Assembly (NCBI GenBank): GCA_003224085.1
Contig: QHYK01000061.1
Location: 1-64,000, forward strand
Source: Acidobacteriota bacterium
GTDB taxonomy: Bacteria > Acidobacteriota > Terriglobia > Acidiferrales > UBA7541
Direction: 5' to 3'
DNA: 64,000 nucleotides
The stretch's first letter is position 1; each line of letters starts with the position of its first letter. The position numbers were made by a program, and so were the translations under genes. The notes beneath the pieces were generated by a model. It saw only the letters and a program-made list of their open reading frames with translations, searched no databases and was not told the origin of the DNA. This document shows positions 39,232 to 63,645 of this stretch, one piece after another.

Positions 39232-40533
39232 TCAGCCCCCCTGGCGTTCTCGAGATGGTCGTTCACGGGACAGCAAAACGGGGGCTGGTCCGATGAAAAC
39301 GGTGCAAGCGGGACTTAAGGAAAGCTGTTTCCCGGACAAATCTCTCTCCTCGTTAACCGTCCACGCCTCGGGAATCTTGAATTTCGCGGTTCGGGCCGGA
39401 TTCCACACGACCCACGCCCGATGATCCGGACGGCTCAGTTCACAAATCCAGGCGCCACTCCGATCGGGAAGGCAGGAAACCATGCGCGCGCCAACCAGCC
39501 ACTTCTCGGTTTCCGCAAAAGCGGTTGCCGGAGGTTTCAAGGTCTGTCCATCCGCTTCGGTCAATCCGCCGACCTCGCTGTCCCAGGAATAAAAGTAAAA
39601 TCGTCGGACGCCCATGGCCCAGTTCAGCAGATAGGAACGCGCCACATAGGCGGAGGCTTCCTCGAGCGTCAGCACCCTGCTAAAGGAGGAGTTTTGCGGC
39701 GTGACCTTGCTCAACCGATTCTCGATGAGCCAGCCCGTTTCGGTGTTCCACAGGGGCTTGGTCGCCAAATGGTTTTCCTCTAGCACGGCGCGCAAGCGCT
39801 CGCCGAGCTCCAGCATGGCTTCCGGTGCGCCCGGTGTGACATAAAAGTGAAACCCGATCACGTCGGCGTACGCGCCACCCCCCATATGCAGATAGTGTTC
39901 AAGCCATGCCACTCCCGTCTGCCCGGTGGCGGACGGCGAAACGACGAGAACCGTCTGGTCCACTTGCTTCAAAACGCCATAGGCTTCGCGGGCCAGTTCG
40001 AGCATCGTGTCCGGCCGGCCAGAAAAAAAATCGCTCAGGTTCGGTTCATTCCAGATCTCGTAGGCGTGGATGCGGCCTTTGTAACGCGTGGCGACCTCGC
40101 GAACATACTCGCTCCAATCGGAAATATTCCGAGGTTCAGCAGCGTTGCCGTGTTCATAACCTGACTTTTCTTTTGGCCGGCTAGAAGCCCACGCCGGTGT
40201 TAGCCCGAGGGGCAACAAGATCTCGACACCATGACTCTCCGCCAGAGAGATATAACGATCGAGGTGCGAGAAATCCCACTGCCCTTTTTGCGGCTCCACG
40301 TTGGGCCAGACTACATAGGCGTCCCAAAGGCGCCAGGAACCGAACGAGACGCGAGGCCAGGGTGTCGGCTGCGGGAGATGGTGTATGTGCAGACCGAAGA
40401 AGGAAAGTGGAACGGGCTCGCTCGGAGGCACGAGCTTTGTCGCGCGCGCCCTACTCTTCCACAATTCAACGGAGATCGCGGCCAGGACCAGCAACGCGAA
40501 AAGGCGCAAAGCGGACCTCGGCGTCGTGGACAT
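39232..40533 (-). CDS. PslG-like glycoside hydrolase (GH39-type TIM barrel)
   Basis: 433 residues with a signal/anchor (LRLFALLVLAAISVEL). The TIM barrel has FFGLHIHHL, TPWPRVSFGSWRLWDAYVVW, the acid/base motif HAYEIWNEPNLSDFF and the nucleophile region KPLWNTETGWL. This is the GH39-like pattern of PslG, the endoglycosidase of the Pseudomonas Psl exopolysaccharide operon. It probably trims or releases polymer in the periplasm. A paralogue is encoded at 54874-56157, sharing the opening residues (PW, VSFGS, WDAY) and the same catalytic pair. Confidence 0.82.
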   Translation of the reverse strand: MSTTPRSALRLFALLVLAAISVELWKSRARATKLVPPSEPVPLSFFGLHIHHLPQPTPWPRVSFGSWRLWDAYVVWPNVEPQKGQWDFSHLDRYISLAESHGVEILLPLGLTPAWASSRPKEKSGYEHGNAAEPRNISDWSEYVREVATRYKGRIHAYEIWNEPNLSDFFSGRPDTMLELAREAYGVLKQVDQTVLVVSPSATGQTGVAWLEHYLHMGGGAYADVIGFHFYVTPGAPEAMLELGERLRAVLEENHLATKPLWNTETGWLIENRLSKVTPQNSSFSRVLTLEEASAYVARSYLLNWAMGVRRFYFYSWDSEVGGLTEADGQTLKPPATAFAETEKWLVGARMVSCLPDRSGAWICELSRPDHRAWVVWNPARTAKFKIPEAWTVNEERDLSGKQLSLSPACTVFIGPAPVLLSRERPSRERQGG

Positions 40534-51998: not shown

Positions 51999-53294
51999 TC
52001 ATTGCCGATTCAGCAGGATGTTTCTGATCTCACCCCGTCCTCGCACCAAACGGGCGGCTTGCTGAAGGCTCGACCAGGCCAGGCTGCCGTTGCGCCAGGC
52101 CCGCACGTAGACCGGCGCTTTGACCTTCAAATCGCGAAGGACGCGACGAAAACTTCCGAGCCAGGGAGCCTTCAAGGGTGGAATCGTTCGACCGTCAAAC
52201 GACACGCCCGGCGCCATTCTCCTGAACAGGGACGAAACGGCCTGCCCGAGCGATGGTTGCGAAAACGTCATGGCCAGCTGCGGAGGAACCCGGGAATGCA
52301 GGTGGTTCATCCAAACCTGCTCGTAGGCGAGGCTTTCTACCTCGTCGAGCCTCGGCGGTGCCTTGAGCTGGCGGAAGAATTCCGCTGGGATTCCGGTGCC
52401 GAACGAGTCCTTCACCATTTTGAGGGTCAAGTACATCCAGTCGCTGTAGCCCCTGCGGACGGTCTCCCGTCCAATCCACTCCCAATCCAAGCGCTTCTCC
52501 TGAAGCTCGATCCAAAGGTGGACGTCGAGCAGCGGCCGCAATCCCAGGGAGAAGAAGTGCCCCCGAGAGAGATGCTGCACCAAATGAAAGAGGAATTCAT
52601 GCGCATCAAGGATGGGAATACGCAGATCGTTCCAGTCTACTTGCTCAACGCGCTTCCAGACCTTAGCCGTCGGCAGGGCAAACCATGGCTCGGCAGATTC
52701 CAGCTGGGTGTGAAGCTCGATGAGCGCCTGCGTGCCGGTCTTTTCAAGCGGCAGGGAGATTTCTTCTCCGGGAACCACAAAATCTTTGACAATCAGAGGG
52801 TTGGCGAACTCGAATCGCTTCGGGCACTTGAAACCAGCCTCCTCGATGAGCTTTAGGGCCTTCGCGAGTCCTTCCGGGCGCACTAGCAGATCGATGTCAG
52901 AAACCGACCGCAGCGAAGAATCCGGATAGGCCAGAAACGCCAGCACGGCACCTTTCAAAATCACGAACTCGACCTCATGCCGCGTAAACTCGCTCACAAG
53001 GTTCTGAAGTTCGAATCGCAAGCGCAGCCATCGAGCCGCAGTGGCTAGGCGGGCGTGCCCGGCTTCCCGCAAGAGCTCGACCGGGCACTGACCGGCAAAG
53101 CCATGCTCGCTCGTCTTGTATGCGAGATAGGCGGTTAGATCCGGAGGTGTGATTCGAAACAAGCGCCGCCAGTCGACTTGCTGCGCCGCCGCTTGCAGCG
53201 CCAGGGATCGTTCCGGGCGCTGCCGACCCAGCAATTGAAGCAAAAACTCGCGCTCGCGCGAAGACTCTTGATAACACGGAGAGGAAGGAAGCAA
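51999..53294 (-). CDS. Nucleotidyltransferase-family protein (PF14907 type)
   Basis: 431 residues. The core VEFVILKGAVLAFLAYPDSS, LRSVSDIDLLVRPEGLAKAL is the nucleotidyltransferase signature (LKG...D-x-D) of the uncharacterised NTP_transf_5 family. The rest is helical with many Trp and Arg (GRPLLDVHLWIELQE-like segment at 240-260). Relatives occur with PqqD-like and HprK-like proteins near exopolysaccharide and some lasso-peptide loci, where they are believed to modify a peptide or be modified. It is third or fourth in the copy-A operon, 41 bases after the S26-type gene. Confidence 0.8.
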   Translation of the reverse strand: MLPSSPCYQESSREREFLLQLLGRQRPERSLALQAAAQQVDWRRLFRITPPDLTAYLAYKTSEHGFAGQCPVELLREAGHARLATAARWLRLRFELQNLVSEFTRHEVEFVILKGAVLAFLAYPDSSLRSVSDIDLLVRPEGLAKALKLIEEAGFKCPKRFEFANPLIVKDFVVPGEEISLPLEKTGTQALIELHTQLESAEPWFALPTAKVWKRVEQVDWNDLRIPILDAHEFLFHLVQHLSRGHFFSLGLRPLLDVHLWIELQEKRLDWEWIGRETVRRGYSDWMYLTLKMVKDSFGTGIPAEFFRQLKAPPRLDEVESLAYEQVWMNHLHSRVPPQLAMTFSQPSLGQAVSSLFRRMAPGVSFDGRTIPPLKAPWLGSFRRVLRDLKVKAPVYVRAWRNGSLAWSSLQQAARLVRGRGEIRNILLNRQ

Positions 53295-53335
53295 GCTTTT
53301 CGATTCCGAAGGGCCCGGCGGAGTCCGATCTTGCC

Positions 53336-53923
53336 TCAGAGAGCCACTCCTCGACCCGAACCAAGAGCCACCCGACGCTTTAGATAACCCCTTGCTTTCT
53401 CGACCATCCCATGAATGCGAATGATGCGTTTTGCGGTCGAGACAGCGATGCGAGGGCTCACTCTCAGGAGATTGCCAACCAGATTCGAGATCAGAAATGC
53501 CATCGAGCGAAAGACCAATCCTCTCTCAGGAGGCGGGCCGACCGGTTGCCAGAGCCCGCCAGTCGAAAACGCAATCACCGTGCCCAAAACGGACGTTGCG
53601 GGCACTGGCCAATCGCAACAGACGGTCGCATCCCCGCGCGTGATCAGATACTCCGTGCTCCCCGACTTCATCGATCGCACCAAACGATGCGCCATGACGC
53701 GGTCTTTAGAAGCATAGGTCAGTACTTGGCCGACCGTGAACCGGCCTTTCTCGGCCGGCAAGACGCGGATCCACGAGCTGTCGGGCAGTGTGGGCGCCAT
53801 GCTCTTGCCGTGAAGCAGAAAGTCGAACTCCCGAGATCCTTTCCTCAGGAGATTCGAGATTGCCAACAAGCGCTGGCTCCCCAACACCAGCTGGCCCGCG
53901 ACCCTCGATGGATTCAGTTTCAC
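53336..53923 (-). CDS. S26-type signal-peptidase-like protein with Ser/His (ER-like) signature
   Basis: About 195 residues from the GTG at 53923; the open frame runs to 54103 and TTG starts at about 53950-54050 are alternatives. The catalytic serine region is FDFLLHGKSMAPTLPDSSWI and the second motif is DRVMAHRLVRSMKSG, where a histidine sits at the place of the bacterial Lys, as in SipW/Sec11 enzymes. The box RGDATVCCDWPVP corresponds to box E (G-D). The membrane anchor is not obvious. Its location, right after precursor A, suggests it removes the leader peptide, a role usually played by other proteases in RiPP loci. Confidence 0.7.
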   Translation of the reverse strand: MKLNPSRVAGQLVLGSQRLLAISNLLRKGSREFDFLLHGKSMAPTLPDSSWIRVLPAEKGRFTVGQVLTYASKDRVMAHRLVRSMKSGSTEYLITRGDATVCCDWPVPATSVLGTVIAFSTGGLWQPVGPPPERGLVFRSMAFLISNLVGNLLRVSPRIAVSTAKRIIRIHGMVEKARGYLKRRVALGSGRGVAL

Positions 53924-54059
53924 GCTACTGCCACACCCGATGAGGGCTTCCAATAAGGAGCAACGGAGCTGCGAACAAAACACCGGCAGCAGGAGGAACA
54001 AACGGAGTGCGGATCGGCGGATCGAGCCCTCAAGGTTCGATGGAACCAAACACCGTCGA

Positions 54060-54221
54060 CTAGCCCCACCATGAGCCGGCGACGACGGGAACCTGGAACA
54101 CACTCATGACCTGGTTCTCGTCCATAACCGTTAGGCGAGGCGCCTCATAGGCCGGCAGCGGGGAAGCCTGCCGGTCGTTTTTCTCGGGCGGGGCGCCGCT
54201 TTTCTTGTTCTGTTCCTTCAC
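54060..54221 (-). CDS. RiPP-like precursor peptide, copy A
   Basis: 53 residues, GTG start overlapping the pqqD-like stop as GTGA, with AGGAGA seven bases upstream. A polar N-terminal half (KEQNKKSGAPPEKNDRQ) leads to AYEAPRL, that is a YxxPxL leader motif at residues 25-30, then a hydrophobic C-terminus ending QVMSVFQVPVVAGSWWG. Residues 28-53 are identical to copy B (62274-62435). YxxPxL is the motif that PqqD-like RiPP recognition elements bind in lasso and related precursors. Which residues form the product, and which are modified, is unknown; Ser50, the two Trp and the Gly terminus are candidates. There is no signal peptide. Confidence 0.85.
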   Translation of the reverse strand: MKEQNKKSGAPPEKNDRQASPLPAYEAPRLTVMDENQVMSVFQVPVVAGSWWG

Positions 54222-54508
54222 GGTTTGTCTCCTGAAAGCGATTCTTCGATCACAAAGTTCAGCGATCGCATCTCTTCGAGCGCGCTCCTGGTATCGCGAA
54301 CGGCGTTTTCAGGGGCAACCCCGGAAAAACTTTCGCAGATCTTGGCGCAGAGCGCTTCCGAAGATGCCGGTGTGGCCAGCTGGTTCCAGAGGAATGCTGC
54401 GGTGCGATTGAGCAAACAGAACTTATTGTTTTGCGGATCGAAAAGGATGGTCTCTTCCTGCAGCGGTGCCATCTCTATGGCAGGACTTCGACGGTAGATT
54501 GTGCTCAC
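54218..54508 (-). CDS. PqqD-like RiPP recognition element (peptide chaperone)
   Basis: 96 residues starting at GTG. The winged-helix-like PqqD fold shows as ETILFDPQNNKFCLLNRTAA, FLWNQLATPASSEALCAKIC, and GVAPENAVRDTRSALEEMRS with a C-terminal LNFVIEE. PqqD-type proteins bind the leader of a ribosomal precursor and present it to modifying enzymes. The four-base overlap with precursor A ensures stoichiometric translation. A decayed copy of this gene lies upstream of precursor B. Confidence 0.85.
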   Translation of the reverse strand: MSTIYRRSPAIEMAPLQEETILFDPQNNKFCLLNRTAAFLWNQLATPASSEALCAKICESFSGVAPENAVRDTRSALEEMRSLNFVIEESLSGDKP

Positions 54509-54540
54509 TTTGGGAGGCCTCGAATCTGGCTGGCGGCCTT

Positions 54541-54570
54541 AGCCTAGCAAACGGCGAAAGCCACCGTCAA
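54541..54570 (-). promoter_or_regulatory. Promoter of the pqqD-precursor A operon
   Basis: On the minus strand TTGACG and TAGGCT are 18 bases apart, ending about 33 bases before the pqqD start. The promoter of precursor B has the same arrangement (TTGACA, 17 bases, TAGAGT), with similar flanks, so the two are duplicates. Confidence 0.55.
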
Positions 54571-54873
54571 GGCTGGTCGTGTGCTCATGATGGTGACAGT
54601 TATCACGGCTACGCTCGTCGTGATCACGGCTGCTCCTTTACCTCGTGGGAGAAGCCGATCCCAGCAGCCGCACCGTCCTTCCTGTCTTTACTTGATTTCC
54701 CTTCTCGGCGCGAAGCACCAAGCAACTTTGCGGGTGTGTAACGGGCAGCCGAGCAATGGCTGACCCTTGCTGCCCGTCAAGGACAAAGCGGTTGTCGGGA
54801 TCGTATAAGGTGGCCATTCCCGAACGGCGCAGCCTTCGAGGCTTGTGCCGACAAAGACAAATAGGAGGGGATC
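54571..54873. other. Intergenic region between divergent operons
   Basis: No gene is recognised. It should contain the promoter of the plus-strand glycoside hydrolase. Confidence 0.35.
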
Positions 54874-56157
54874 ATGTCAGCCCTTCTCTTTCCAGGGCGC
54901 CTCGCTGCTTGGGGCCCGGTCTTCGCCCTCTTGCTCGGGGCAACCGGCTGCACCGACACGACGCGCCAATCCGCAAGCGCGAGAACCGTGGCCGCTTCCG
55001 TCATCCCTGCCACGTACTTCGGCATGCATGAGAACAACGCCGCAGACAGTAACCCGTGGCCGCTTGTGTCATTTGGCAGTTTCCGCAGCTGGGATGCATA
55101 CCAGATCGGTTGGGCCGATCTTGAACCGTCGCGCGGCATCTACAACTGGGCGCCGCTCGATGCGTACATCCAGGCCCTCAATTCGCAAGGCGTCACCGAC
55201 ATCCTTTACACTTTTGGGCACACGCCTTCTTGGGCCGCCGTCGATGGCTGCCTGCCGCCTGCGAACAACCAGGACATGATCGATTTTGTTACCGCTATCG
55301 CTACCCATGCGAAGGGCAAGCTCAGGCACTGGGAGACCTGGAACGAGCCTTATTTCACCGATTTCTGGTGCGGCACGATGAGCCAATTGGTTGGGCTGCA
55401 GAATGACGTATACAATGCGGTCAAAGCGGTCGATGGGACGGCTACCGTGCACACTCCGGTGGTCGGAATTTCGGATACGCCCAACGATTGCCACAACACC
55501 GCAGCCGGTTCTTACAATGTCCACGACTTTTTGGCGGCCGACGGAACGTCCAATTTTGACGTTGTGGATGTGCATATGTATCCCCATACCGCAGGATCCG
55601 CGCCGGAAACCTCTGGTATCCGTCTCGCTAATCTCACGTGCGCGCTGAACAGCCATGGTATCGGGACGGCACCCATATGGAACACGGAATTCAGCTGGGG
55701 CCTAAACACCGCCTTGCCTAACGCCGATGACCAAGCTGCCTACGTGGCCCGCGCCTACCTTTATCACTGGTCGCAGGGAGTAGCACGGTCCTATTGGTAC
55801 GCATACAACAACGACACCTGGGGCACAATATTCAACGGCACGAGCCTCAATTCGGCAGGTCTCGCCTACCAACAGGTTCACGACTGGATGGTGGGAGCCA
55901 CGATGACCAACCCCTGCACCGCGGCCGGCGGGGTCTGGACCTGCGGACTTATTCTGGCTGATGGCCATCTCGGGCAAGCGGTGTGGTTGGATGCTTTCCA
56001 ATCCGCATCTACCGAGAGCTACACACCGGGAGGAACTCTGAACCAGTATCACGACCTCGCCGGCGGAACGACAACCTTCTCCGCTTCGGTGACCATCAGC
56101 GAAAAACCACTCCTGCTTGAGGGTGCGCCGGCTACTCTTCCCAGTCCCTCCCCTTAA
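54874..56157 (+). CDS. PslG-like glycoside hydrolase, probable lipoprotein
   Basis: 427 residues starting after GGAGGGG. The N-terminus (FALLLGATGCTDTT) resembles a lipoprotein signal with the cysteine at residue 29. The TIM barrel parallels the protein at 39232-40533: YFGMHENNAADSNPWPLVSF, GSFRSWDAYQIGWADLEPSR, the acid/base HWETWNEPYFTDFW and the nucleophile APIWNTEFSWG. It is GH39-like and could act on the same exopolysaccharide outside the inner membrane. It is transcribed against both peptide operons and separates them. Confidence 0.8.
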   Translation: MSALLFPGRLAAWGPVFALLLGATGCTDTTRQSASARTVAASVIPATYFGMHENNAADSNPWPLVSFGSFRSWDAYQIGWADLEPSRGIYNWAPLDAYIQALNSQGVTDILYTFGHTPSWAAVDGCLPPANNQDMIDFVTAIATHAKGKLRHWETWNEPYFTDFWCGTMSQLVGLQNDVYNAVKAVDGTATVHTPVVGISDTPNDCHNTAAGSYNVHDFLAADGTSNFDVVDVHMYPHTAGSAPETSGIRLANLTCALNSHGIGTAPIWNTEFSWGLNTALPNADDQAAYVARAYLYHWSQGVARSYWYAYNNDTWGTIFNGTSLNSAGLAYQQVHDWMVGATMTNPCTAAGGVWTCGLILADGHLGQAVWLDAFQSASTESYTPGGTLNQYHDLAGGTTTFSASVTISEKPLLLEGAPATLPSPSP

Positions 56158-56281
56158 GCGAGAGCGGGATTCGGCCTCTCGGGGGAGCGACGACAAACAT
56201 TTGCTCGCGTATGCGGCTTTTCCTGCCGCACGATGAGGGCTCTCTCCGGAACGGATTGGGCCATGGCGCGCACCAGAGTTT

Positions 56282-57628
56282 TCAGCGCACTATAAGAGGA
56301 CCACCTGTCTGCCGGACACGATCGCAAACGCCCTCTTGGTCCTGCACCAAAGCGGCGTCCTCGTCGATCCAGTGCAATCCCCGGGCGAGGACCGCAAATT
56401 GTTTTTCGTCGACTCGGCGGAGTTTCACCCGAATCTCGTTTGTCGCGTCGCCCCCTTCCAAGGTCAGCGACCACGAATCGGGGTTTGAAAAGGCAAATTC
56501 GAACTCTTTCTTGGAATCATTGGCTTTGCCCATAGCAAAGGTGTGCTTGGCCGTGTTCGCACGCAGCCAGTATCCCATCCACGAGCCGTTCATGGACTGA
56601 ATGCCAACCTCTTTGGGAAACTGAAAGACCACCCGCTGCCAGCGGGTCCCCTCCGTTGCCAGCGGAGGCAGCTTCTTCCCACTGAGCACGAATTCCTCGA
56701 CGTTCCAGATGCCGTAGAACGGCGGCCTGGAAGACATGCCGAAGTGTCGTTTTTCGAAATCGTGCGCTCGGTGAAGGTTAGAGAAGACCAGGACCGCGCC
56801 CAGCGTCAATTGCGCGACCAAGGCGGCCGTGTTTAGACGCCGGCGATGGAAGAGCGCGGTCTCGGGCGAAGATGGCACGGTTTGATTGAGCAAGAAGAAG
56901 CGAACCAACCGCCGCCCGTCCGGCAGAAAAAGAAAGAAGCAGACCAGAAGAATGTGCAAGGAATAGAGCTTAACCGGCAAGTCATAGCCCAAGTTCAGAG
57001 CGAAGATGTTCGTAAAGACGGCAATGGCGACCAGAGCTCCCAGAGTTGTCAGCCGCGGTATGAATAGCAGGATGCCGGCAAGCATCTGCAAACAGCCGGC
57101 AAATACGCTGTAACCCCGAGAAGCACCCATAAAGGTCCACAGCAAGCTCATCTGTGAGTAATTGCCGAGGGGCTCAAGCAGTTTATACAGATTTGGCGAG
57201 GGGAAATGCTGCAGGAAGATCTTGGCGGCTCCGTACATGAGCATCGCAGCCCCAACCGAAAGCCGGACATACGACCGGAGCCACTCGTGCATCCGTTGGT
57301 GGTTTGAGCTCGATCGGTCGAGGAGGGACCAAAGAAGAGAGGCAGCGAAGGCCACGCCGAAAAAACAAAGGACTCGCGCATATTCGTACGTGGTATCACC
57401 GCTGCAGTTTGTGTTCGTCAAAATCTCGTAGTTCAAGTGAAGGACATGCCTGCCAAACCAAGGCACCAGCTTCTGCCAGAGTGACTCGTATTCTTGCGCG
57501 ACTCGGCCAGTGCGAGGAAAGGCCCCGAAGGGGAACGGCAGGTAGTACAAAATAAGGTAAACAAAGACGAAGCGAAACGCCAAAAGCTCGGCCCGCGACC
57601 AATGCGCTGGCTGTTCCTGATTTTCCAT
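56282..57628 (-). CDS. Polytopic HTTM/DoxX-like membrane protein with C-terminal soluble domain
   Basis: 448 residues from the ATG at 57628 (MENQEQPAHWSRAELLAFRF); an upstream in-frame start adds 13 residues. The first 270 residues contain about seven to eight membrane helices (FVFVYLILYYLPFPFGAF, LSVGAAMLMYGAAKIFLQHF, LQMLAGILLFIPRLTTLGAL, LHILLVCFFLFLPDGRRLVR), as in the DoxX/HTTM group. The last 150 residues form a periplasmic beta-rich domain (YGIWNVEEFVLSGKKLPPLA, LTLEGGDATNEIRVKLRRVD). The role is unknown; relatives are redox-associated or carboxylase-like. It is last in the copy-B operon. Confidence 0.65.
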   Translation of the reverse strand: MENQEQPAHWSRAELLAFRFVFVYLILYYLPFPFGAFPRTGRVAQEYESLWQKLVPWFGRHVLHLNYEILTNTNCSGDTTYEYARVLCFFGVAFAASLLWSLLDRSSSNHQRMHEWLRSYVRLSVGAAMLMYGAAKIFLQHFPSPNLYKLLEPLGNYSQMSLLWTFMGASRGYSVFAGCLQMLAGILLFIPRLTTLGALVAIAVFTNIFALNLGYDLPVKLYSLHILLVCFFLFLPDGRRLVRFFLLNQTVPSSPETALFHRRRLNTAALVAQLTLGAVLVFSNLHRAHDFEKRHFGMSSRPPFYGIWNVEEFVLSGKKLPPLATEGTRWQRVVFQFPKEVGIQSMNGSWMGYWLRANTAKHTFAMGKANDSKKEFEFAFSNPDSWSLTLEGGDATNEIRVKLRRVDEKQFAVLARGLHWIDEDAALVQDQEGVCDRVRQTGGPLIVR

Positions 57629-57901
57629 ATTGAGCCTCCCGGCTGCGGGCCTTCCATTCGCTAACAAACTGCAAGTTCTGCCTGCCGCAATTGAAATCCG
57701 GCCGCACGGGTCTTAACGGGCCCTGGACGCTCCCAAGGGACAGAGACTCCCATCGAACACAAAAACTCGACGGGCGGCTATGGGGAGGTGCGAGGAAAGA
57801 CAAGTGGATTTCACGCGAATTGTTGCTGGAGCAAGCTCTAAAAAGTCAGTAACCACTTCCCCGCGAACACTCGACTCGGGTACCTCGATTGTTTCCTTCC
57901 A
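57629..57901. other. Gap of 270 bases within the copy-B operon
   Basis: No coding frame is convincing. It is the only sizable gap in this minus-strand operon and may hold an internal promoter. Confidence 0.3.
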
Positions 57902-59029
57902 CTACACGACCATGTGCGATTGCGGAGTGAGGTACGGTCCAATGGACTTGCGGACGAACGGATTCTTGAACGCCCAGACGAGCCCGTCCAGGTAGAAGTG
58001 AACCAGTGCCAGCGAGTTCCAAAGGATGACGTAAGAAATAGGAACGCCCAGCCAGGCACTGCTCTTTTGCGCAAGATAAAACACTGCTCCGACAGAAACC
58101 AAGGTGAACAGGAGAAGCGGAGTCTTCGTGCTGATCGAGGAGAGCAGCCTCTGGTGTTCCGAGCCTTCCCGGGTCGCGTACTTCCTGCGATTGAGCAACC
58201 AGACGATGCCCAAATACTGCAGAAAATGGCCGATGAGCATGCCAAAGGTCGCAAGATCCAGATCGCGGACCCACAGGTAGGGGTGGAAAAGCAGCAAGCT
58301 GGATACAAGAAAGGCAAGCTCGGGGGCCCGCATCGGCTTCGCGCGGCGCCGAAGAGTGTCCAGGTAGAAGACCAGCCCGAAGACAGCAACAGCCAGAAAG
58401 CCGGCTTCCATGGCCCACACCGGGAAATGGATCCTGAGCAGGTTCTGATAAATCGGAGGGAAGCGGTCAATATGCAGGAATGCCAGGCTCCCGTTCACGC
58501 CGAGAAGGGAAGCACGTGCAAAGCGGCTCTCGGAGAGCGAACCCGCATGGAGGCGCCGATAGATGGAAAGGATGCCGGCGCTTTGCATGGACACATGAAA
58601 GACATTCCACACATAGAGCCCAGACTGCACGGCGGCGTCCATCTTCGTGAGTCGCAGCGCCATCACCCCGATGAAGATCAGGACCGGACCGACAAAAAAA
58701 GCCAAGCGCCGCGTACGGTAGTACGCCAGGTTCTCATCACCCAGGTAAAAGCTGAAGCTCGAGACATAGTGTGGAATGGCAATCAGATAGGTGGCGGCAA
58801 TGAAGACGCGCATGCCCCTGGGCCACGCGAGCACCGGCACTATCACGAGTAGACCCGCGAGCGGCGACAAGGTGAACAGGCTCAGATCGAACAGCGGGGA
58901 TTCGACCCAGCCGCGCTTGTTTTGGCCCGGAGCGAGAGCCTGATCGGTGGTGAGATTGCGGTCCTGTCGGAGGAAAGACGCGCCTGCCGACAAAGGATTT
59001 TCGATTCCCATGAGATCAGTGGCTTTCAT
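57902..59029 (-). CDS. Polytopic membrane protein with intramembrane histidines
   Basis: 375 residues from the ATG at 59029 (MKATDLMG), overlapping the ferritin-like gene by 14 bases. Eight or nine membrane helices carry recurrent histidines near their ends: YLIAIPHYVSSFSFYLGDEN, VWNVFHVSMQSAGILSIYRR, LIGHFLQYLGIVWLLNRRK and LALVHFYLDGLVWAFKNPFV. The pattern is reminiscent of membrane-embedded metal or haem enzymes (for example Brp/Blh-like dioxygenases), but I do not recognise the family. Its tight coupling to the di-iron proteins suggests a joint oxidative step or export. Confidence 0.6.
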   Translation of the reverse strand: MKATDLMGIENPLSAGASFLRQDRNLTTDQALAPGQNKRGWVESPLFDLSLFTLSPLAGLLVIVPVLAWPRGMRVFIAATYLIAIPHYVSSFSFYLGDENLAYYRTRRLAFFVGPVLIFIGVMALRLTKMDAAVQSGLYVWNVFHVSMQSAGILSIYRRLHAGSLSESRFARASLLGVNGSLAFLHIDRFPPIYQNLLRIHFPVWAMEAGFLAVAVFGLVFYLDTLRRRAKPMRAPELAFLVSSLLLFHPYLWVRDLDLATFGMLIGHFLQYLGIVWLLNRRKYATREGSEHQRLLSSISTKTPLLLFTLVSVGAVFYLAQKSSAWLGVPISYVILWNSLALVHFYLDGLVWAFKNPFVRKSIGPYLTPQSHMVV

Positions 59030-59795
59030 ACGACGCACGCCGTTTTACTGCCTGCGCGGTAGCGGCCTTTACTTCCTCGAGTCCAAAACCGGCTTCCAGC
59101 CGGCCCTTTTCGTCCGTGAGATATTCGACCTTTTCGATGGCCTCCCTGCCCATGACCTGTATGAAGGCGGTCGAAGCAAGGGTGAGCGCCTTGGCCACCC
59201 GCAATGCGGCACGAGGATCCTTGCGGATGCTCTCTGAAATAAACTCATTGGCGAAGCGCACGTGGGTGATTTCGTCGGCTTGTTGCATCTCGAATAGATC
59301 CACCAGTTCCTGATCGCCTCTCTTGCGGGCTTCCTCGATGGCAAAACTCACCGCATCGATTCCGCCCGCTTCAAAGCTGCGGTTCTGCACCACCAGGCGG
59401 CTCAAGAGGTCGCCGAGTTTGGCGATGATGCGGAACTGGAAATTCAGGATCGGGTATTCCCCGAGTTTGCCGCCCCGGCTCTCGAAGATACGCCGGAACA
59501 TTTGCACATGGCGGGCTTCGTCGGCGCACTGGCGAGCGATCGACATGCGCACGTTCCAGTCCGCGTCCGGAAAATCGGCAAGAGACTGCGCGGCATTCTC
59601 TACCCCGTTCAATTCCTCGTTCATTTGGCGATGAAAGAATTCGATGATCCGGAGGGCGTGATCATTGGGAAAATTGGTACAGTCGATCCACCGGCGCTTT
59701 TCGGTAAAGCGTTCATCGCGGGCCGGAGCGGGTCCAAACAGCGCCGGATCAAAATTGTCGGTAGCGCTCACGGAATGTCGATCATCCTTCGGCAT
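59016..59795 (-). CDS. Ferritin-like DUF455-type di-iron protein 2
   Basis: 259 residues. Helices carry the di-iron ligand pattern: HRQMNEELNGVENAAQSLAD (first Glu), IARQCADEARHVQMFRRIFE (E-x-x-H), NRSFEAGGIDAVSFAIEEAR (third Glu) and QQADEITHVRFANEFISESI (E-x-x-H). This resembles DUF455 and MiaE-like oxidases of the ferritin superfamily. Such enzymes activate O2 to hydroxylate or desaturate. Its start codon lies inside the end of the paralogue at 59782-60591. It is about 35-40 percent alike by eye, so one may be regulatory or act on a different residue. Confidence 0.75.
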   Translation of the reverse strand: MPKDDRHSVSATDNFDPALFGPAPARDERFTEKRRWIDCTNFPNDHALRIIEFFHRQMNEELNGVENAAQSLADFPDADWNVRMSIARQCADEARHVQMFRRIFESRGGKLGEYPILNFQFRIIAKLGDLLSRLVVQNRSFEAGGIDAVSFAIEEARKRGDQELVDLFEMQQADEITHVRFANEFISESIRKDPRAALRVAKALTLASTAFIQVMGREAIEKVEYLTDEKGRLEAGFGLEEVKAATAQAVKRRASYESH

Positions 59796-60591
59796 TGCTG
59801 GTCATGATCGGTTGAAACCCCGACTGCCGCAGGTACTCGTCGATTTCACTGTCCGTGAAGTCGGCTTGTCGGCGATCGGCAACGTTGACCTGGGTAATTC
59901 TATTTTGGGGCTCTTCGTAGGCCAGCCCGACGGGGCTTAATTGCCCTTCTTGCGGCGCCAGTGCGGCGGTGACGGAGGAGAGGAAGCGAACGGCCATGGC
60001 AATCTTGAGCGCAAGCCGGCGATCCTCCCGCACCAAGAGTCTCAGCCATTGATTGGCAAAGCGAACATGGGTGATTTCATCGGCAAGGATGGACTCGAGG
60101 ACCTCGGCCGTCCTCTCATCGCCCGCTTCCCGCCACTTGGCCGGGAGCTGGCCGAGCAGGTCCAGCTCGCCCGCTTCGAAGGTGCGGTTTTGCAGCGCCA
60201 GCCGCGCCGCCAGCGTGTCGAGCGAACAGGTCACACACCACTCAAAATTGGAAATCGGAAACTCTCCCTTATGGCCGCCGATCTCGCGCAAGCGTCGATA
60301 GAGCCCTGCCACGTGCCGGCTTTCGTCCCAGCACTGGCGCGCTAAGTGCATGCGCAGTTCCCAGGGCGCCTCGGGGAAATCCACAAGACATTGTGCGGCG
60401 ATCTCAACCGCTCCTGTTTCGTTGTTCATGTGGCGGTGGATGCGTTGACGCCGGGAGATCTCCGTCATCCCCGGCCACTCTTCGAGCTCCGCGTCGCTCC
60501 CGACGACCTTAAAGCAGGCCTCCCGGGCTGGATCGCGTCGCAAGGTCATCCCTTTTATTTGCTTGGTTTCTTCAGGCTTCAGTCCGGCCAT
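59782..60591 (-). CDS. Ferritin-like DUF455-type di-iron protein 1
   Basis: 269 residues from the ATG at 60591, eight bases after GGAGGG; the open frame to 60666 overlaps the upstream gene. Ligand motifs: RHMNNETGAVEIAAQCLVDF, LARQCWDESRHVAGLYRRLR, NRTFEAGELDLLGQLPAKWR and SILADEITHVRFANQWLRLL. Four glutamates and two histidines fit a di-iron site. It is likely soluble and cytoplasmic. Placed between the kinase and the membrane proteins in the precursor-B operon, it is a candidate for oxidising the peptide. Confidence 0.75.
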   Translation of the reverse strand: MAGLKPEETKQIKGMTLRRDPAREACFKVVGSDAELEEWPGMTEISRRQRIHRHMNNETGAVEIAAQCLVDFPEAPWELRMHLARQCWDESRHVAGLYRRLREIGGHKGEFPISNFEWCVTCSLDTLAARLALQNRTFEAGELDLLGQLPAKWREAGDERTAEVLESILADEITHVRFANQWLRLLVREDRRLALKIAMAVRFLSSVTAALAPQEGQLSPVGLAYEEPQNRITQVNVADRRQADFTDSEIDEYLRQSGFQPIMTSNAEG

Positions 60592-60601
60592 AGGCCCTCC
60601 T

Positions 60602-61153
60602 TCATGCGACTGCCGCAGAAGACCGGCGCACGACGATATTGGGTTCACTCGCTTCGCGCTTTGCAAGCTTGGCCGGCCAGTTCTTATCGGCGAGCCGCAG
60701 CTCGGGGAGTTCCTTCCTCAGCGCTTCACTCTCCCCGATCATCCTCTTAAATTCGCCGAGAATTCTTTCCACCACTCGCACGCTAGGTTCATCCAGCAAA
60801 CGGTCCGTACGCTCCAGGTAATTCTGGTATCGTGCCGCGAGGCCCGGCAGCATCACATCATAAAAGCCGTGAATCTTTTGAGGGGTAGTCTCGGTCCGGG
60901 CAAACTCCTCGAGGAGTTCGACGTAGCTGTCGACGGGTCGAAGGCTGAACTGGGACGGCGAGCGCAGCTCGTAGCCCCGCTTTCCAAGCCCATCCGCCTG
61001 CTGGGCAAGGTCCCAGATGTGGCGCCCGAACAGGACCTTGACCTCCGACTCCGGAGTCTGGGGCACCCAGCGGGCAAGTGCTTCCATGAGAAAAACCTGG
61101 ATGAACCGAAACGTAGCGATGTACTCCGCTCTGTCCTGCACCGAAAGGCTCAT
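60602..61153 (-). CDS. 183-residue helical protein, possible degenerate ferritin-like partner
   Basis: All-alpha by sequence. YIATFRFIQVFLMEALARWV, PESEVKVLFGRHIWDLAQQA and DRLLDEPSVRVVERILGEFK resemble the ferritin-fold helix spacing of the two neighbours, but the complete E-x-x-H pairs are not present (only HIWDLAQ). It may be a non-catalytic subunit or a separate family. It overlaps the kinase stop in ATGA and is 10 bases upstream of the next gene, so it is part of the coupled operon. Function unknown. Confidence 0.65.
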   Translation of the reverse strand: MSLSVQDRAEYIATFRFIQVFLMEALARWVPQTPESEVKVLFGRHIWDLAQQADGLGKRGYELRSPSQFSLRPVDSYVELLEEFARTETTPQKIHGFYDVMLPGLAARYQNYLERTDRLLDEPSVRVVERILGEFKRMIGESEALRKELPELRLADKNWPAKLAKREASEPNIVVRRSSAAVA

Positions 61154-62286
61154 TCTGACCTCACAATTCTCTCGACCAGCTCAGCCGTATCTTCCGGCAT
61201 CCCCGGGTAGAGGAAAAGGCAATTTACATTCGACAGCAATCTGGCAACCTGGGCGATTCGCGTCGCTGGGGATCTCCCCCAAAAACTGCAAGCGAGAGGC
61301 ATCAGCAAACGCAGGTCCTGGGAACGTGGCCGGAACGGTTCCGCGCGCGGTCGCCCTTCGAATCCACGCAGAAAAAAAACCCACCGAAGCGGTTGCGGGC
61401 GCGGTTCGGCGGCGGGGAAAAGTTCACTGGCTCGTGCGCGAGAGCGCAACGTGCCGTCGGGAAACGTCTCCATGAAGCAGCATTTGTCGGCGAGCCTCTC
61501 GTCGACAAGGGGCGCTTGCGGCCCCGCTCGAAGCGATACGGCCCGGCGAAAGGGCGCCAATTCGAACGTTTCCGTGCGCACGGCGGCGATCTCATCTCCG
61601 AAAAAGTCGTGGCCCCGTGAGGCGAGCGCCATCGACAGCGTCGATTTGCCGGCCGCCTTTTCGCCGGCAATCAGCACGCCTTCCCCTCCGATGGCCACCG
61701 TGGCCGCGTGGAAGAACAGCAGCTCAGGCTGCATTTGCATGACCCAATTGACCGCGCAATTCGCGACCAGCGGCTGCCAGGGCTCCCCTCGGTCCACGAG
61801 CACCTGCGCGCCTTTGGCCGTCAGCAGCGGCGAACTCCGGCCCGCGAAGGCGATGGACCGCCAACCGCCACGAGCGCGGTCCATTTCGACATAACCTCGC
61901 CCGGGAAACAGCGCAAGCAGGAAATCGATGATCGGAACCTCGTAAGGAGCCGAGAATGTGACCAGGTTGGCGGGCAACCCAGCTTGTACCTCGATGTGGC
62001 ACAGGAGCCCCGGGGTTGCCTCGGCACGCGAAGGGGGCTCCGAGCGAAGTTCCGCATAGAGCGTTCTAAACCTCTGCCGCAAGGGCAGATCTTCCGAGTC
62101 GACTCCCAAAAGACCATCCGCGATGCGATACCAATCGCAGGCACGGAAATTTTCCGCTGCGTCCGGAAACTGGGCCAGCAGTTTGAATGGCTCTAGCCAC
62201 CAAGAGGAGGAACAAGCGGGCGGCACGTCGACCGAAGGAGAGCCGGGGTCTAGATCGGATCGGGCACCGTGCACTAGCCCCACCAT
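61150..62286 (-). CDS. HprK-like serine kinase
   Basis: Up to 378 residues. The ATG at 62286 lies within the codons for the SWWG end of precursor B; a GTG at 62274, overlapping its stop, is the alternative. The C-terminal half has a Walker A motif, GGEGVLIAGEKAAGKSTLSM, and the HPr-kinase-type follow-up HDFFGDEIAAVRTE; the N-terminal half (CHIEVQAGLPANLVTFSAPY) is variable. Relatives phosphorylate serines of peptides, for example in the lasso peptide paeninodin. Ser50 of the precursor, next to the WW pair, is an evident candidate, though this is inferred. No HPr or PTS genes are nearby. Confidence 0.8.
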   Translation of the reverse strand: MVGLVHGARSDLDPGSPSVDVPPACSSSWWLEPFKLLAQFPDAAENFRACDWYRIADGLLGVDSEDLPLRQRFRTLYAELRSEPPSRAEATPGLLCHIEVQAGLPANLVTFSAPYEVPIIDFLLALFPGRGYVEMDRARGGWRSIAFAGRSSPLLTAKGAQVLVDRGEPWQPLVANCAVNWVMQMQPELLFFHAATVAIGGEGVLIAGEKAAGKSTLSMALASRGHDFFGDEIAAVRTETFELAPFRRAVSLRAGPQAPLVDERLADKCCFMETFPDGTLRSRARASELFPAAEPRPQPLRWVFFLRGFEGRPRAEPFRPRSQDLRLLMPLACSFWGRSPATRIAQVARLLSNVNCLFLYPGMPEDTAELVERIVRSE

Positions 62287-62435
62287 GAGCCGGCGACGAC
62301 GGGAACCTGGAACACGCTCATGACCTGGTTCTCGTCCATGACGGTTAGGCGAGGCGGCTCATAGGCCGGCAGTGCGGAAACCTGCCGGTCGTTTTTCTCG
62401 GGCGGGACGCCGGTTTTGTTGTCCTTCTCGGTCAC
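62274..62435 (-). CDS. RiPP-like precursor peptide, copy B
   Basis: 53 residues, GTG start with GAGGAGA upstream. The leader is TEKDNKTGVPPEKNDRQ, the YxxPxL motif is YEPPRL at 25-30, and the C-terminus QVMSVFQVPVVAGSWWG is identical to copy A. Over the last 27 codons, stop included, the two genes differ at three synonymous positions only; the nine amino-acid differences all lie in residues 2-27. A longer open frame upstream runs through a pqqD remnant and the promoter and is an artefact. It is the first gene of a seven-gene operon whose second gene, the kinase, begins inside it. Confidence 0.85.
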   Translation of the reverse strand: MTEKDNKTGVPPEKNDRQVSALPAYEPPRLTVMDENQVMSVFQVPVVAGSWWG

Positions 62436-62600
62436 ACTTGTCTCCTCGAAGTGGTTCTGCGACCTTGGCGCCGGTCGCTCAAGTGCAATTGAGCGGGCAG
62501 AGCTTATTGTTTTTTCCCGATCAAACTGGAGCGTCTGTTGCGGCGCAGGTGCTGTTTCGATCGCCGGGCCTCGAGGAGTAGGCTGGAGTCGCTTCGAAGA
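62436..62600 (-). pseudogene. Decayed pqqD-like gene upstream of precursor B
   Basis: Aligned with the intact gene at 54218-54508: TTTGATCGGGAAAAAACAAT and AAGCTCTGCCCGCTCAATTG match the codons for FDPQNNKFCLLN. The 3' end (GAACCACTTCGAGGAGACAA) matches the end plus ribosome binding site of copy A. About 120 bases of the middle are missing, and an A-run has two extra bases, so the frame is lost. The promoter-proximal part (CCCGAATCTTGGCTGG against CTCGAATCTGGCTGG) also aligns. Confidence 0.7.
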
Positions 62601-62625
62601 CCCCGAATCTTGGCTGGACTGGTGT

Positions 62626-62654
62626 ACTCTAACAACGGAAAAAGTCTTTGTCAA
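62626..62654 (-). promoter_or_regulatory. Promoter of the precursor B operon
   Basis: Minus-strand TTGACA and TAGAGT are 17 bases apart. The resulting mRNA would have a leader of about 185 bases that includes the pqqD remnant. It is homologous to the promoter in front of the intact pqqD gene. A divergent gene begins at 62740. Confidence 0.6.
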
Positions 62655-62739
62655 GGTTGCCGATCGTATGGTTGCCGGTCGCAATCGATCGTAATTCAAA
62701 TTGTAATTCCATCGTTCCGCTTGGCGGGGAAGTTCGATC

Positions 62740-63645
62740 GTGCTGAGGATGGTCTTTTTCGGCAGCGGCGGCGAAGGCAGCATGGTTCCGCTCGAGACGG
62801 TCTCCCGTGCGCATCGGGTCATCGCCCTGGTGAAGCCTTCACGATCGCAATCCTGGTTGCGTCGAACGGCTCGCTCGATCCTGTGGCGCACCGGGGTCGG
62901 GACGTCGGCGGCTATGGCCCGGTGGGCCAGAACTCACGATGTGCCCCTGCTTGAGGCGACCTCCGGATGCGATGCCAAACTCGCCAACCAACTGAAACGG
63001 CTTCGGCCGGACATCATCTGTGTCTCGGCATTCCCTTGGCTCCTCGATCGCGAAATTCTCCATACAGCCGGCCGGGCCGCATTGAACGTCCACTCGTCGT
63101 TGCTTCCGCGTCATCGCGGCCCGAACCCCTTGTTGTGGATCTACTACCATGACGATCGACGGACAGGCGTGACCGTGCACGGCATGAACGAGCGGGCCGA
63201 CGCCGGCGCCATTTTCGCGCAGGAAGAGTTCGATTTGCCCCGCGGATTCCCGGTGGATGGTTTGTACGCCAGAAAGGCCCTTCTCGGCGGAGAGCTGTTG
63301 CTGCGGGTTTTAAACCAGCTTGAATCCGGAGAGGCTAGATCCACGCCACAAGAAGAAACACTGGCAACCTATGCCCCCGGCGTCCCGCAGGGGAGTAAAC
63401 TTGTTAATTTCTCGGCGTGGGGCGCCGAGCGGGTATGGCATTTCCTTCGAGGGCTATGCCCCCGGCGGCGGGAACCTCTTTGGGATGGTTCCGAGCGGCA
63501 AGTTCGCTACAAATCGGTTCTCGGCTACACGGAGCACGATAGTGCCAAAGCACCCGGCCTGGTGGAGCGGACTTCGTTTGGTTGGAACGTGTATTGCCGA
63601 GGCGGGTCTGTACAATTGGGAAAATCGCGCCAACCCAATCGGTGA
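62740..63645 (+). CDS. Formyltransferase-domain protein (methionyl-tRNA formyltransferase-like)
   Basis: 301 residues. The formyltransferase fold shows in LRMVFFGSGGEGSMVPLETV, RPDIICVSAFPWLLDREIL, the catalytic LNVHSSLLPRHRGPNPLLWI (Asn and His of N-x-H, loop SLLPxxRG) and GVTVHGMNERADAGAIFAQE, with the third catalytic Asp. The C-terminal half is diverged from tRNA formyltransferases, so the acceptor may be an amino sugar or an amine on the peptide. 10-formyl-tetrahydrofolate would be the donor. It is transcribed away from precursor B, with a shared 5' region. Confidence 0.82.
   Translation: MLRMVFFGSGGEGSMVPLETVSRAHRVIALVKPSRSQSWLRRTARSILWRTGVGTSAAMARWARTHDVPLLEATSGCDAKLANQLKRLRPDIICVSAFPWLLDREILHTAGRAALNVHSSLLPRHRGPNPLLWIYYHDDRRTGVTVHGMNERADAGAIFAQEEFDLPRGFPVDGLYARKALLGGELLLRVLNQLESGEARSTPQEETLATYAPGVPQGSKLVNFSAWGAERVWHFLRGLCPRRREPLWDGSERQVRYKSVLGYTEHDSAKAPGLVERTSFGWNVYCRGGSVQLGKSRQPNR

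Follow-up and report, generated by a model that had tools for sequence, protein, structure and literature searches.

Among the closest described counterparts of the system reported here are two groups of gene clusters. Clusters for the linear polyphosphorylated peptides (LPPs) of Bacillota (Popov et al., May 2026; PMC13381572) combine an RRE (recognition element of ribosomally synthesized and post-translationally modified peptides, RiPPs) with an HprK-like kinase, a SipW-like peptidase, a nucleoside triphosphate (NTP) transferase and an MsbA-like exporter, and they often lie in capsule loci. The roles of kinase, peptidase and RRE were demonstrated experimentally, the final product being unidentified, and the precursors follow the motif YxxPxVLxHQxIxFETxxS with a core of up to 45 residues (PMC13381572). 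The second group comprises the phosphorylated lasso peptide clusters paeninodin, pseudomycoidin and Bsf (PMC8498205, PMC10368454). The operon described here lies in a 64,000-nucleotide stretch of Acidobacteriota DNA (positions 1 to 64,000 of contig QHYK01000061.1, assembly GCA_003224085.1), which as a whole we call the window, and which comes from a genome of 6.8 Mb in 159 contigs. We consider it fairly probable that this operon is a RiPP cluster in which an oxidative di-iron module has been added to a chassis like that of the LPP and phosphorylated lasso systems.

The chassis itself, consisting of RRE, HprK-like kinase, SipW-like peptidase and nucleotidyltransferase, is already described in LPP clusters (PMC13381572), and to that extent the initial annotation, which proposed the whole combination as a candidate undescribed system, needs correction. 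The part for which no described counterpart was found in the literature searched is a triad of ferritin-like proteins together with a Trp-Trp core. What appears new is a pair of di-iron proteins encoded in tandem and added to a chassis like that of LPPs; they probably oxidize the Trp-Trp core, both substrate and product being deduced from the genes.

Comparison of the sequences establishes the anatomy of the operon, its conservation, the invariance of its motifs and, for the genomes searched, the near-exclusivity of its DUF455 protein pair. A PqqD-type RRE, a short precursor peptide, the HprK-like kinase, the helical protein helC, the two DUF455 proteins ferA and ferB and an S26 peptidase occur together in 11 of 11 loci, which were picked by the peptide or by helC, so that those two are present by construction while the other five genes are not. 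The 11 genomes are that of the window (G000), G006 (locus L012), G003 (L014), G017 (L015), a gp1 metagenome-assembled genome (MAG; L023), G114 (L041), G155 (L042), G130 (L043), G675 (L083), G666 (L084, treated as identical with the L024 contig of a gp7 MAG) and G667 (L085); the named records among the operon carriers are soil Acidobacteria MAGs. The RiPP-like character first proposed for the locus is borne out by this recurrence of a short precursor beside an RRE and tailoring enzymes, and each gene named in that proposal was located at the position given for it. In the window the minus-strand operon extends from 62435 to 51999, and the features of the locus are as follows.

62740–63645, plus: formyltransferase, divergent neighbour, not core (PF00551, 1.4e-21).
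62480–62620 (approximate), minus: decayed remnant of a second PqqD in front of pepA2 (blastn, 69% over 136 nucleotides to the intact copy).
62274–62435, minus: precursor pepA2, 53 residues, second copy.
61150–62286, minus: HprK-like kinase with P-loop and invariant His193 and Asp231.
60602–61153, minus: helC, predicted ferritin-like, apparently without the metal-binding ExxH.
59782–60591 (ATG at 60591), minus: ferA, DUF455 ferritin-like protein with a full di-iron ligand set (PF04305, 4.9e-29).
59016–59795, minus: ferB, second DUF455 ferritin-like protein with a full di-iron ligand set (PF04305, 3.3e-20).
57902–59029 (ATG start read), minus: memB, membrane protein with five invariant histidines and without a known family.
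56282–57667, minus: memA, accessory membrane protein (5 of 11 loci).
54874–56157, plus: GH39-like gene inside the locus, outside the system.
54218–54508, minus: PqqD-type RRE, the recognition protein (PF05402, 2.1e-12).
54060–54221, minus: precursor pepA1, 53 residues, GTG start.
53336–53923 (start by homology), minus: S26 peptidase of SipW/archaeal type, likely the leader peptidase.
51999–53294, minus: nucleotidyltransferase of family PF14907 (NTP_transf_5; 7e-42).

The precursor is constrained at few positions. Across 13 precursors from the 11 genomes Y25, P28, Q43, W51 and W52 are invariant and nothing else is, so that the Y..P leader originally proposed is present in every sequence. The tails after Trp-Trp vary by lineage (G, VM, VTASMR, SPPAGL, MAGC, TMGVTCPCT). 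The pattern Y..P-[FI]Q-WW, drawn up after the peptides were known, has 33 matches among the 14,468 open frames of at least 30 codons in the loci, and every one of the 33 is an operon peptide, although overlapping loci mean that many of these matches repeat one peptide. Under the lasso spacing rule, which places Y..P.. at −17 to −12 of the core (PMC10368454), the core would begin at FQ or IQ, and by the LPP rule, in which LppS cleaves after F-E-T (PMC13381572), the cut would fall after FQ[VLIM]. Cores delimited by the lasso rule each contain at least one Ser or Thr and no acidic residue (13 of 13); in the window the single candidate is the Ser immediately before Trp-Trp. The variable tails bear on an alternative in which the peptide serves merely to carry the two tryptophans, in the way PqqA serves pyrroloquinoline quinone (PQQ): the di-iron pair would oxidize and join them and the rest would be cut away, leaving a small, ribosomally encoded bis-tryptophan product of unknown class (redox cofactor, pigment or metal ligand). 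This reading predicts a fixed Trp-Trp before unrelated tails, as is observed, and we hold it to be possible but quite unlikely.

The second constrained element is the DUF455 pair. Both window proteins score well above the Pfam PF04305 cut-off of 34.3 bits (73.1 and 102.1 bits), and the ligands E, ExxH, E, ExxH are invariant in 22 of 22 ferA and ferB sequences; Glu, ExxH, Glu, ExxH is the usual carboxylate di-iron set. Every operon has one ferA-type and one ferB-type protein. In a tree of 27 sequences ferB (support 100/97) and the canonical DUF455 proteins (100/100) form firm groups and ferA a weaker one (71/93), with long branches flagged; the plain reading of these sequences is that the gene duplicated once, long ago, and that every operon has retained a copy of either kind. 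The pair is nearly confined to the operon, accounting for 20 of the 21 DUF455 matches in ten operon genomes. Among 396 genomes of the phylum, 22 have DUF455 at E≤1e-5 and 12 score above the cut-off: four of these are operon genomes with two copies each (and a third in G114), three have marginal scores, and five have one canonical DUF455 with no PqqD, peptide, HprK, helC or S26 within the 2.6–3.7 kb analysed. DUF455 is mentioned in seven of the papers covered. Among the papers listed by a literature search, with most subscription journals outside its coverage, none links a RiPP cluster to DUF455 or to ferritin-like proteins in its title or the beginning of its abstract, and by word search 'ferritin' and 'DUF455' are absent from the accessible text of PMC7470986 and PMC12710340.

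Kinase and peptidase match known families at lower scores. The HprK-like kinase aligns with the HPr kinase C-terminal domain (1.8e-7; at 31.3 bits slightly short of the Pfam cut-off of 33.3) and with solved HprK sequences (3.7e-8). Its assignment, with the PqqD protein, to the HPr-rel-A group (TIGR04352/TIGR04353), mentioned in the initial annotation, is rejected, both proteins falling under the curated cut-offs (HprK_rel_A, 53.9 vs 200 bits; PqqD_rel_X, 21.4 vs 35 bits). The S26 peptidase matches the archaeal-type signal peptidase I model TIGR02228 (8.5e-8, 32.2 bits, below the cut-off of 51.85) and the SipW model (6.3e-4, below cut-off); its Ser, His and Asp motifs are present in 5 of 5 sequences, and a hydropathy scan of these finds no segment in three and one near the C-terminus in two. 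In memB the histidines H90, H148, H252, H271 and H347 are invariant in 8 of 8 sequences, the only recurrent weak family match is OFeT_1 (best 0.0036; 4 of 8 members), and the AlphaFold model is too poor for a fold search (mean pLDDT 48.4).

That kinase and nucleotidyltransferase alone make the product, an LPP-like phosphorylated linear peptide, with the ferritin-like proteins just binding or scavenging iron or O2, is a reading we regard as rather unlikely. Ferritin-like folds are often storage proteins, every core offers a Ser or Thr, and the four chassis components match the LPP core (PMC13381572). However, the FerA and FerB pair is present in all 11 loci and the nucleotidyltransferase in seven, the ligand sets of ferA and ferB are complete and the pair is nearly restricted to the operon, and the accessible text of the LPP publication contains no occurrence of a ferritin-like gene (PMC13381572).

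Peptide and enzymes also coincide in genome searches. A search with the single window peptide matched 4 of 89 genomes of the family, each match lying in an operon, and a profile of 13 rows found the same four; the operon is missing from most genomes of the window's genus, and its distribution is therefore patchy. Among the 396 phylum genomes helC has strong matches (E<1e-50) in four and weak ones in 11 others; those four are also where the peptide matches strongly (E<1e-10), its weak matches lying in another 14; the peptide model for this search included the peptides of G114, G130 and G155, and strong scores there are partly by construction. Since that model contained three of the matched genomes' peptides, the fairer test is one built from four close relatives, which found the peptide beside PqqD in G114, G155 and G130, at loci located via helC alone. 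The co-occurrence that the initial annotation proposed to check is supported, and the case it named as refuting, a peptide without the enzymes, was sought in the family and phylum searches and not encountered at convincing scores.

The weak peptide matches in the 14 further genomes range from E 2.5e-4 to 0.08. In the best of them, G150, the one inspected, a PqqD-type gene precedes a short peptide that has Y..P but a different, Trp-free core (L086, G150:C245, 625–1222, minus strand, on a 4-kb contig); this may be a sister system whose tailoring differs. The weak helC matches (11 further genomes plus five in another search) are mostly proteins of 430–540 residues. A profile search of seven such loci (L044–L050; L072, L073 and L075 were left out) found no PqqD, peptide or HprK, and these matches were therefore discounted. 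Proteins of about 480–540 residues at L044–L050 (e.g. L045:9314–10831) have one part weakly helC-like and another weakly ferA/ferB-like, and are possibly fused two-domain ferritin-like proteins. A scan of genome contigs with two patterns from the four close relatives returned five loci, all from Acidobacteria, and missed G114, G130 and G155. A plasmid search gave no match for helC, and its matches to ferA were confined to remote DUF455 proteins from 11 records, each of which covered less than 80% of ferA; no relative of ferA appeared in a viral-contig scan, and helC, ferA, ferB and pepA1 had no match in PHROGs.

By analogy, the operon would work like an LPP or phosphorylated lasso system up to leader removal. 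The RRE would bind the Y..P motif and hand the precursor on to the other enzymes. Of these, the kinase would phosphorylate a core Ser or Thr, in the window the Ser just before Trp-Trp, and the nucleotidyltransferase, where present, would decorate that phosphate. FerA, FerB and helC may form a heteromeric O2-activating di-iron complex of two metal-bearing subunits and one structural subunit, which would oxidize the core, the invariant Trp-Trp being the most likely site. Next, the leader would be cut off by the SipW-like peptidase, probably after FQ[VLIM], comparable with LppS after F-E-T in LPP (PMC13381572), and memB may handle or export the product.

Several observations weigh against this oxidative reading. 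The scheme is read from the genes, and the residue on which the di-iron proteins would act is deduced solely from invariance. The operon has no redox partner (reductase or ferredoxin). The Ser and Thr positions of the core do not align between lineages, so that a single phosphosite is not evident. Nor do all loci show memB and PF14907, memB being in line in seven loci, within about 6 kb in two more and not seen in two, and PF14907 being present in seven with none in the analysed stretch of the other four, although several stretches stop at contig ends and absences there may be artefacts. Finally, the evidence on helC is divided. Its structure model (pLDDT 85.4, pTM 0.84) predicts a ferritin-like protein, the best VIA-align match being toluene 4-monooxygenase hydroxylase chain B (Z 15.3, rmsd 3.2, 170 aligned), in a comparison where helical bundles reach Z 13 through common arrangement. 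Chain B is the metal-free subunit of that enzyme. Foldseek gave no match at E≤0.001 (best 0.032, YciF-type ferritin-like proteins), and hhalign comparison of the helC profile with those of ferA and ferB gave no link (probability 1.2% and 0.2%). In the weak alignment from this comparison all 9 helC rows (9 of 9) have Leu, Ala, Thr or Phe where the first ExxH has its Glu, which tentatively suggests that helC lacks a metal site.

The initial annotation had made twin precursors a defining feature and had most genes tied together by overlapping starts and stops. In G003 the order is simple (PqqD, peptide, HprK, helC, ferA, ferB, memB, memA, S26, NTP transferase) with one peptide copy. The window and G006 share a layout with two, in which the copy before HprK has an intact peptide and PqqD only as a remnant, and these are the only two of the 11 genomes with the duplication. 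In the window pepA1 and pepA2 are 81% identical, with the last 26 residues the same, and the PqqD/pepA1 and pepA2 regions align at 87% identity over 199 nucleotides besides the remnant. On this comparison the twin precursors arose by duplication within the locus, and the second PqqD has since decayed. Between the window's copies, codons 1–22 differ by 2.5 synonymous and 8.5 non-synonymous changes and codons 23–53 by 3.0 and 1.0, and pepA2 of the window and of G006 differ in codons 23–53 by 3.0 and 0. By this synonymous excess, purifying selection acts on the second half of the peptide; none is visible on the first 22 codons, which drift. Both copies look like working genes. In G003 a remnant of a second memB-like gene lies at L014:6093–6510 (minus strand), with memA on one side and S26 on the other, and in G114 the order is altered, ferA preceding HprK.

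Overlaps do tie PqqD to pepA1 and HprK to helC (4 nucleotides each), pepA2 to HprK (13), and ferA to ferB and ferB to memB (14 each), with helC and ferA 10 nucleotides apart. The remaining junctions are gapped by at least 41 nucleotides, and the plus-strand GH39-like gene cuts the locus in two; in G006 memA runs directly into PqqD with no such gene in between. The window holds a second GH39-like gene at 39232–40533. The formyltransferase, also put forward as a defining feature, is divergent in the window and therefore outside the operon's transcription unit; it occurs in 6 of 11 loci, in two of them 2–4 kb from PqqD.

The proposed tie to exopolysaccharide synthesis is clear for part of the loci and unsupported as a general feature. 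The 20 kb downstream in the window contain glycosyltransferases and asparagine synthase (Pfam) and Wzz, WcaJ, Wzx/Wzy and a deacetylase (named from inspection of translations). Wzz and WcaJ genes abut the operon in the window, G006 and G003, and a looser association is seen in L023 and L015, where a glycosyltransferase or polysaccharide-export gene lies 6–8 kb off. Together with the frequency of asparagine synthase and formyltransferase as neighbours and the capsule loci in which LPPs often occur (PMC13381572), this could mean that the peptide is phospho-glycosylated and attached to, or regulating, a surface glycan rather than being a free product. We give that reading a low probability: no glycan gene was found among the 10 neighbours scanned in G114, and the asparagine synthases are not one conserved partner. 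The latter are found within the analysed stretch of 7 of the 11 loci, in most cases on the opposite strand or kilobases away (the window's own is 15 kb distant), and are mostly 23–46% identical, only two pairs reaching 67%; asparagine synthase as a core member was rejected on that ground, there being no single orthologous partner. Other neighbours recur. Fatty-acid-hydroxylase-type membrane genes lie near the operon at L015:9537–10469, L042:5568–7549, L043:14750–15724 and L084:4016–4912, and HTTM-domain genes do likewise in several lineages.

Among known systems, the phosphorylated lasso clusters share with the operon the PqqD-type B1 protein, the HprK-like kinase K, the nucleotidyltransferase N and the Y/WxxPxL leader (PMC8498205, PMC10368454), and in 5 of the 7 operon genomes searched, of the 11, B2-type genes are carried by other contigs. 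A lasso cluster with cyclase and B2 peptidase acting from elsewhere in the genome is nevertheless very improbable. With no acidic residue in any of the 13 cores there is no ring acceptor, and PF13471 B2 genes are off the operon contig in 7 of 7 genomes and were found nowhere in G130 and G155; a lasso peptide identity was rejected. Unlike the phosphorylated lasso clusters as described, the operon shows no B2, no evident lasso cyclase and no ring acid, and has an S26 peptidase and di-iron proteins. Elsewhere in the window genome a B2-type transglutaminase-like gene (PF13471) lies 4 kb from two PqqD-type frames (G000:C117, about 93.5–98.2 kb, L017). This is probably a lasso cluster in its own right, comparable with the coexistence of LPP and lasso clusters in Bacilli.

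Multicomponent di-iron monooxygenases such as toluene 4-monooxygenase resemble the operon, at the level of a fold match only, in having metal-bearing and apparently metal-free ferritin-like subunits encoded adjacently. The operon differs in that its metal-bearing subunits are DUF455 proteins of about 260–270 residues, its substrate is presumably a peptide and it has no reductase or ferredoxin. The PQQ and mycofactocin pathways have a PqqD-type protein and a short precursor with a fixed residue pair in variable surroundings; in the operon the pair is Trp-Trp, and no radical SAM enzyme was found there.

With LPP clusters the operon shares a discrete RRE, HprK-like kinase, SipW-like peptidase, YxxP leader, frequent position in a glycan locus and lack of an evident lasso cyclase, and in 7 of 11 loci it has a nucleotidyltransferase that may correspond to the LPP NTP transferase (PMC13381572). 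We do not class it as LPP because two defining features were looked for and not seen: a crude motif scan of 14 stretches from the 11 loci found no frame of at least 180 codons with P-loop and LSGG[QEHMRK] as expected of an MsbA-like exporter, and beyond YxxP the leader differs from the LPP motif, the similarity being limited to Y..P and an F/I-Q at about the expected position (PMC13381572). Ser3 of the LPP core is polyphosphorylated, whereas no Ser is conserved at one position in the operon cores, and the Trp-Trp core of the operon has no equivalent in the LPPs described in the accessible text (PMC13381572). If the proposed reading is correct, a pair of ferritin-like di-iron enzymes joins the known tools of ribosomal peptide pathways and DUF455 proteins gain a testable substrate; with a 53-residue precursor and soluble-looking enzymes, the fate of Trp-Trp is approachable by ordinary co-expression. 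LPPs are reported as restricted to Bacillota, without ferritin-like proteins (PMC13381572), and the operon is acidobacterial; on the proposed reading the phospho-peptide chassis would have a counterpart in another phylum, with different chemistry.

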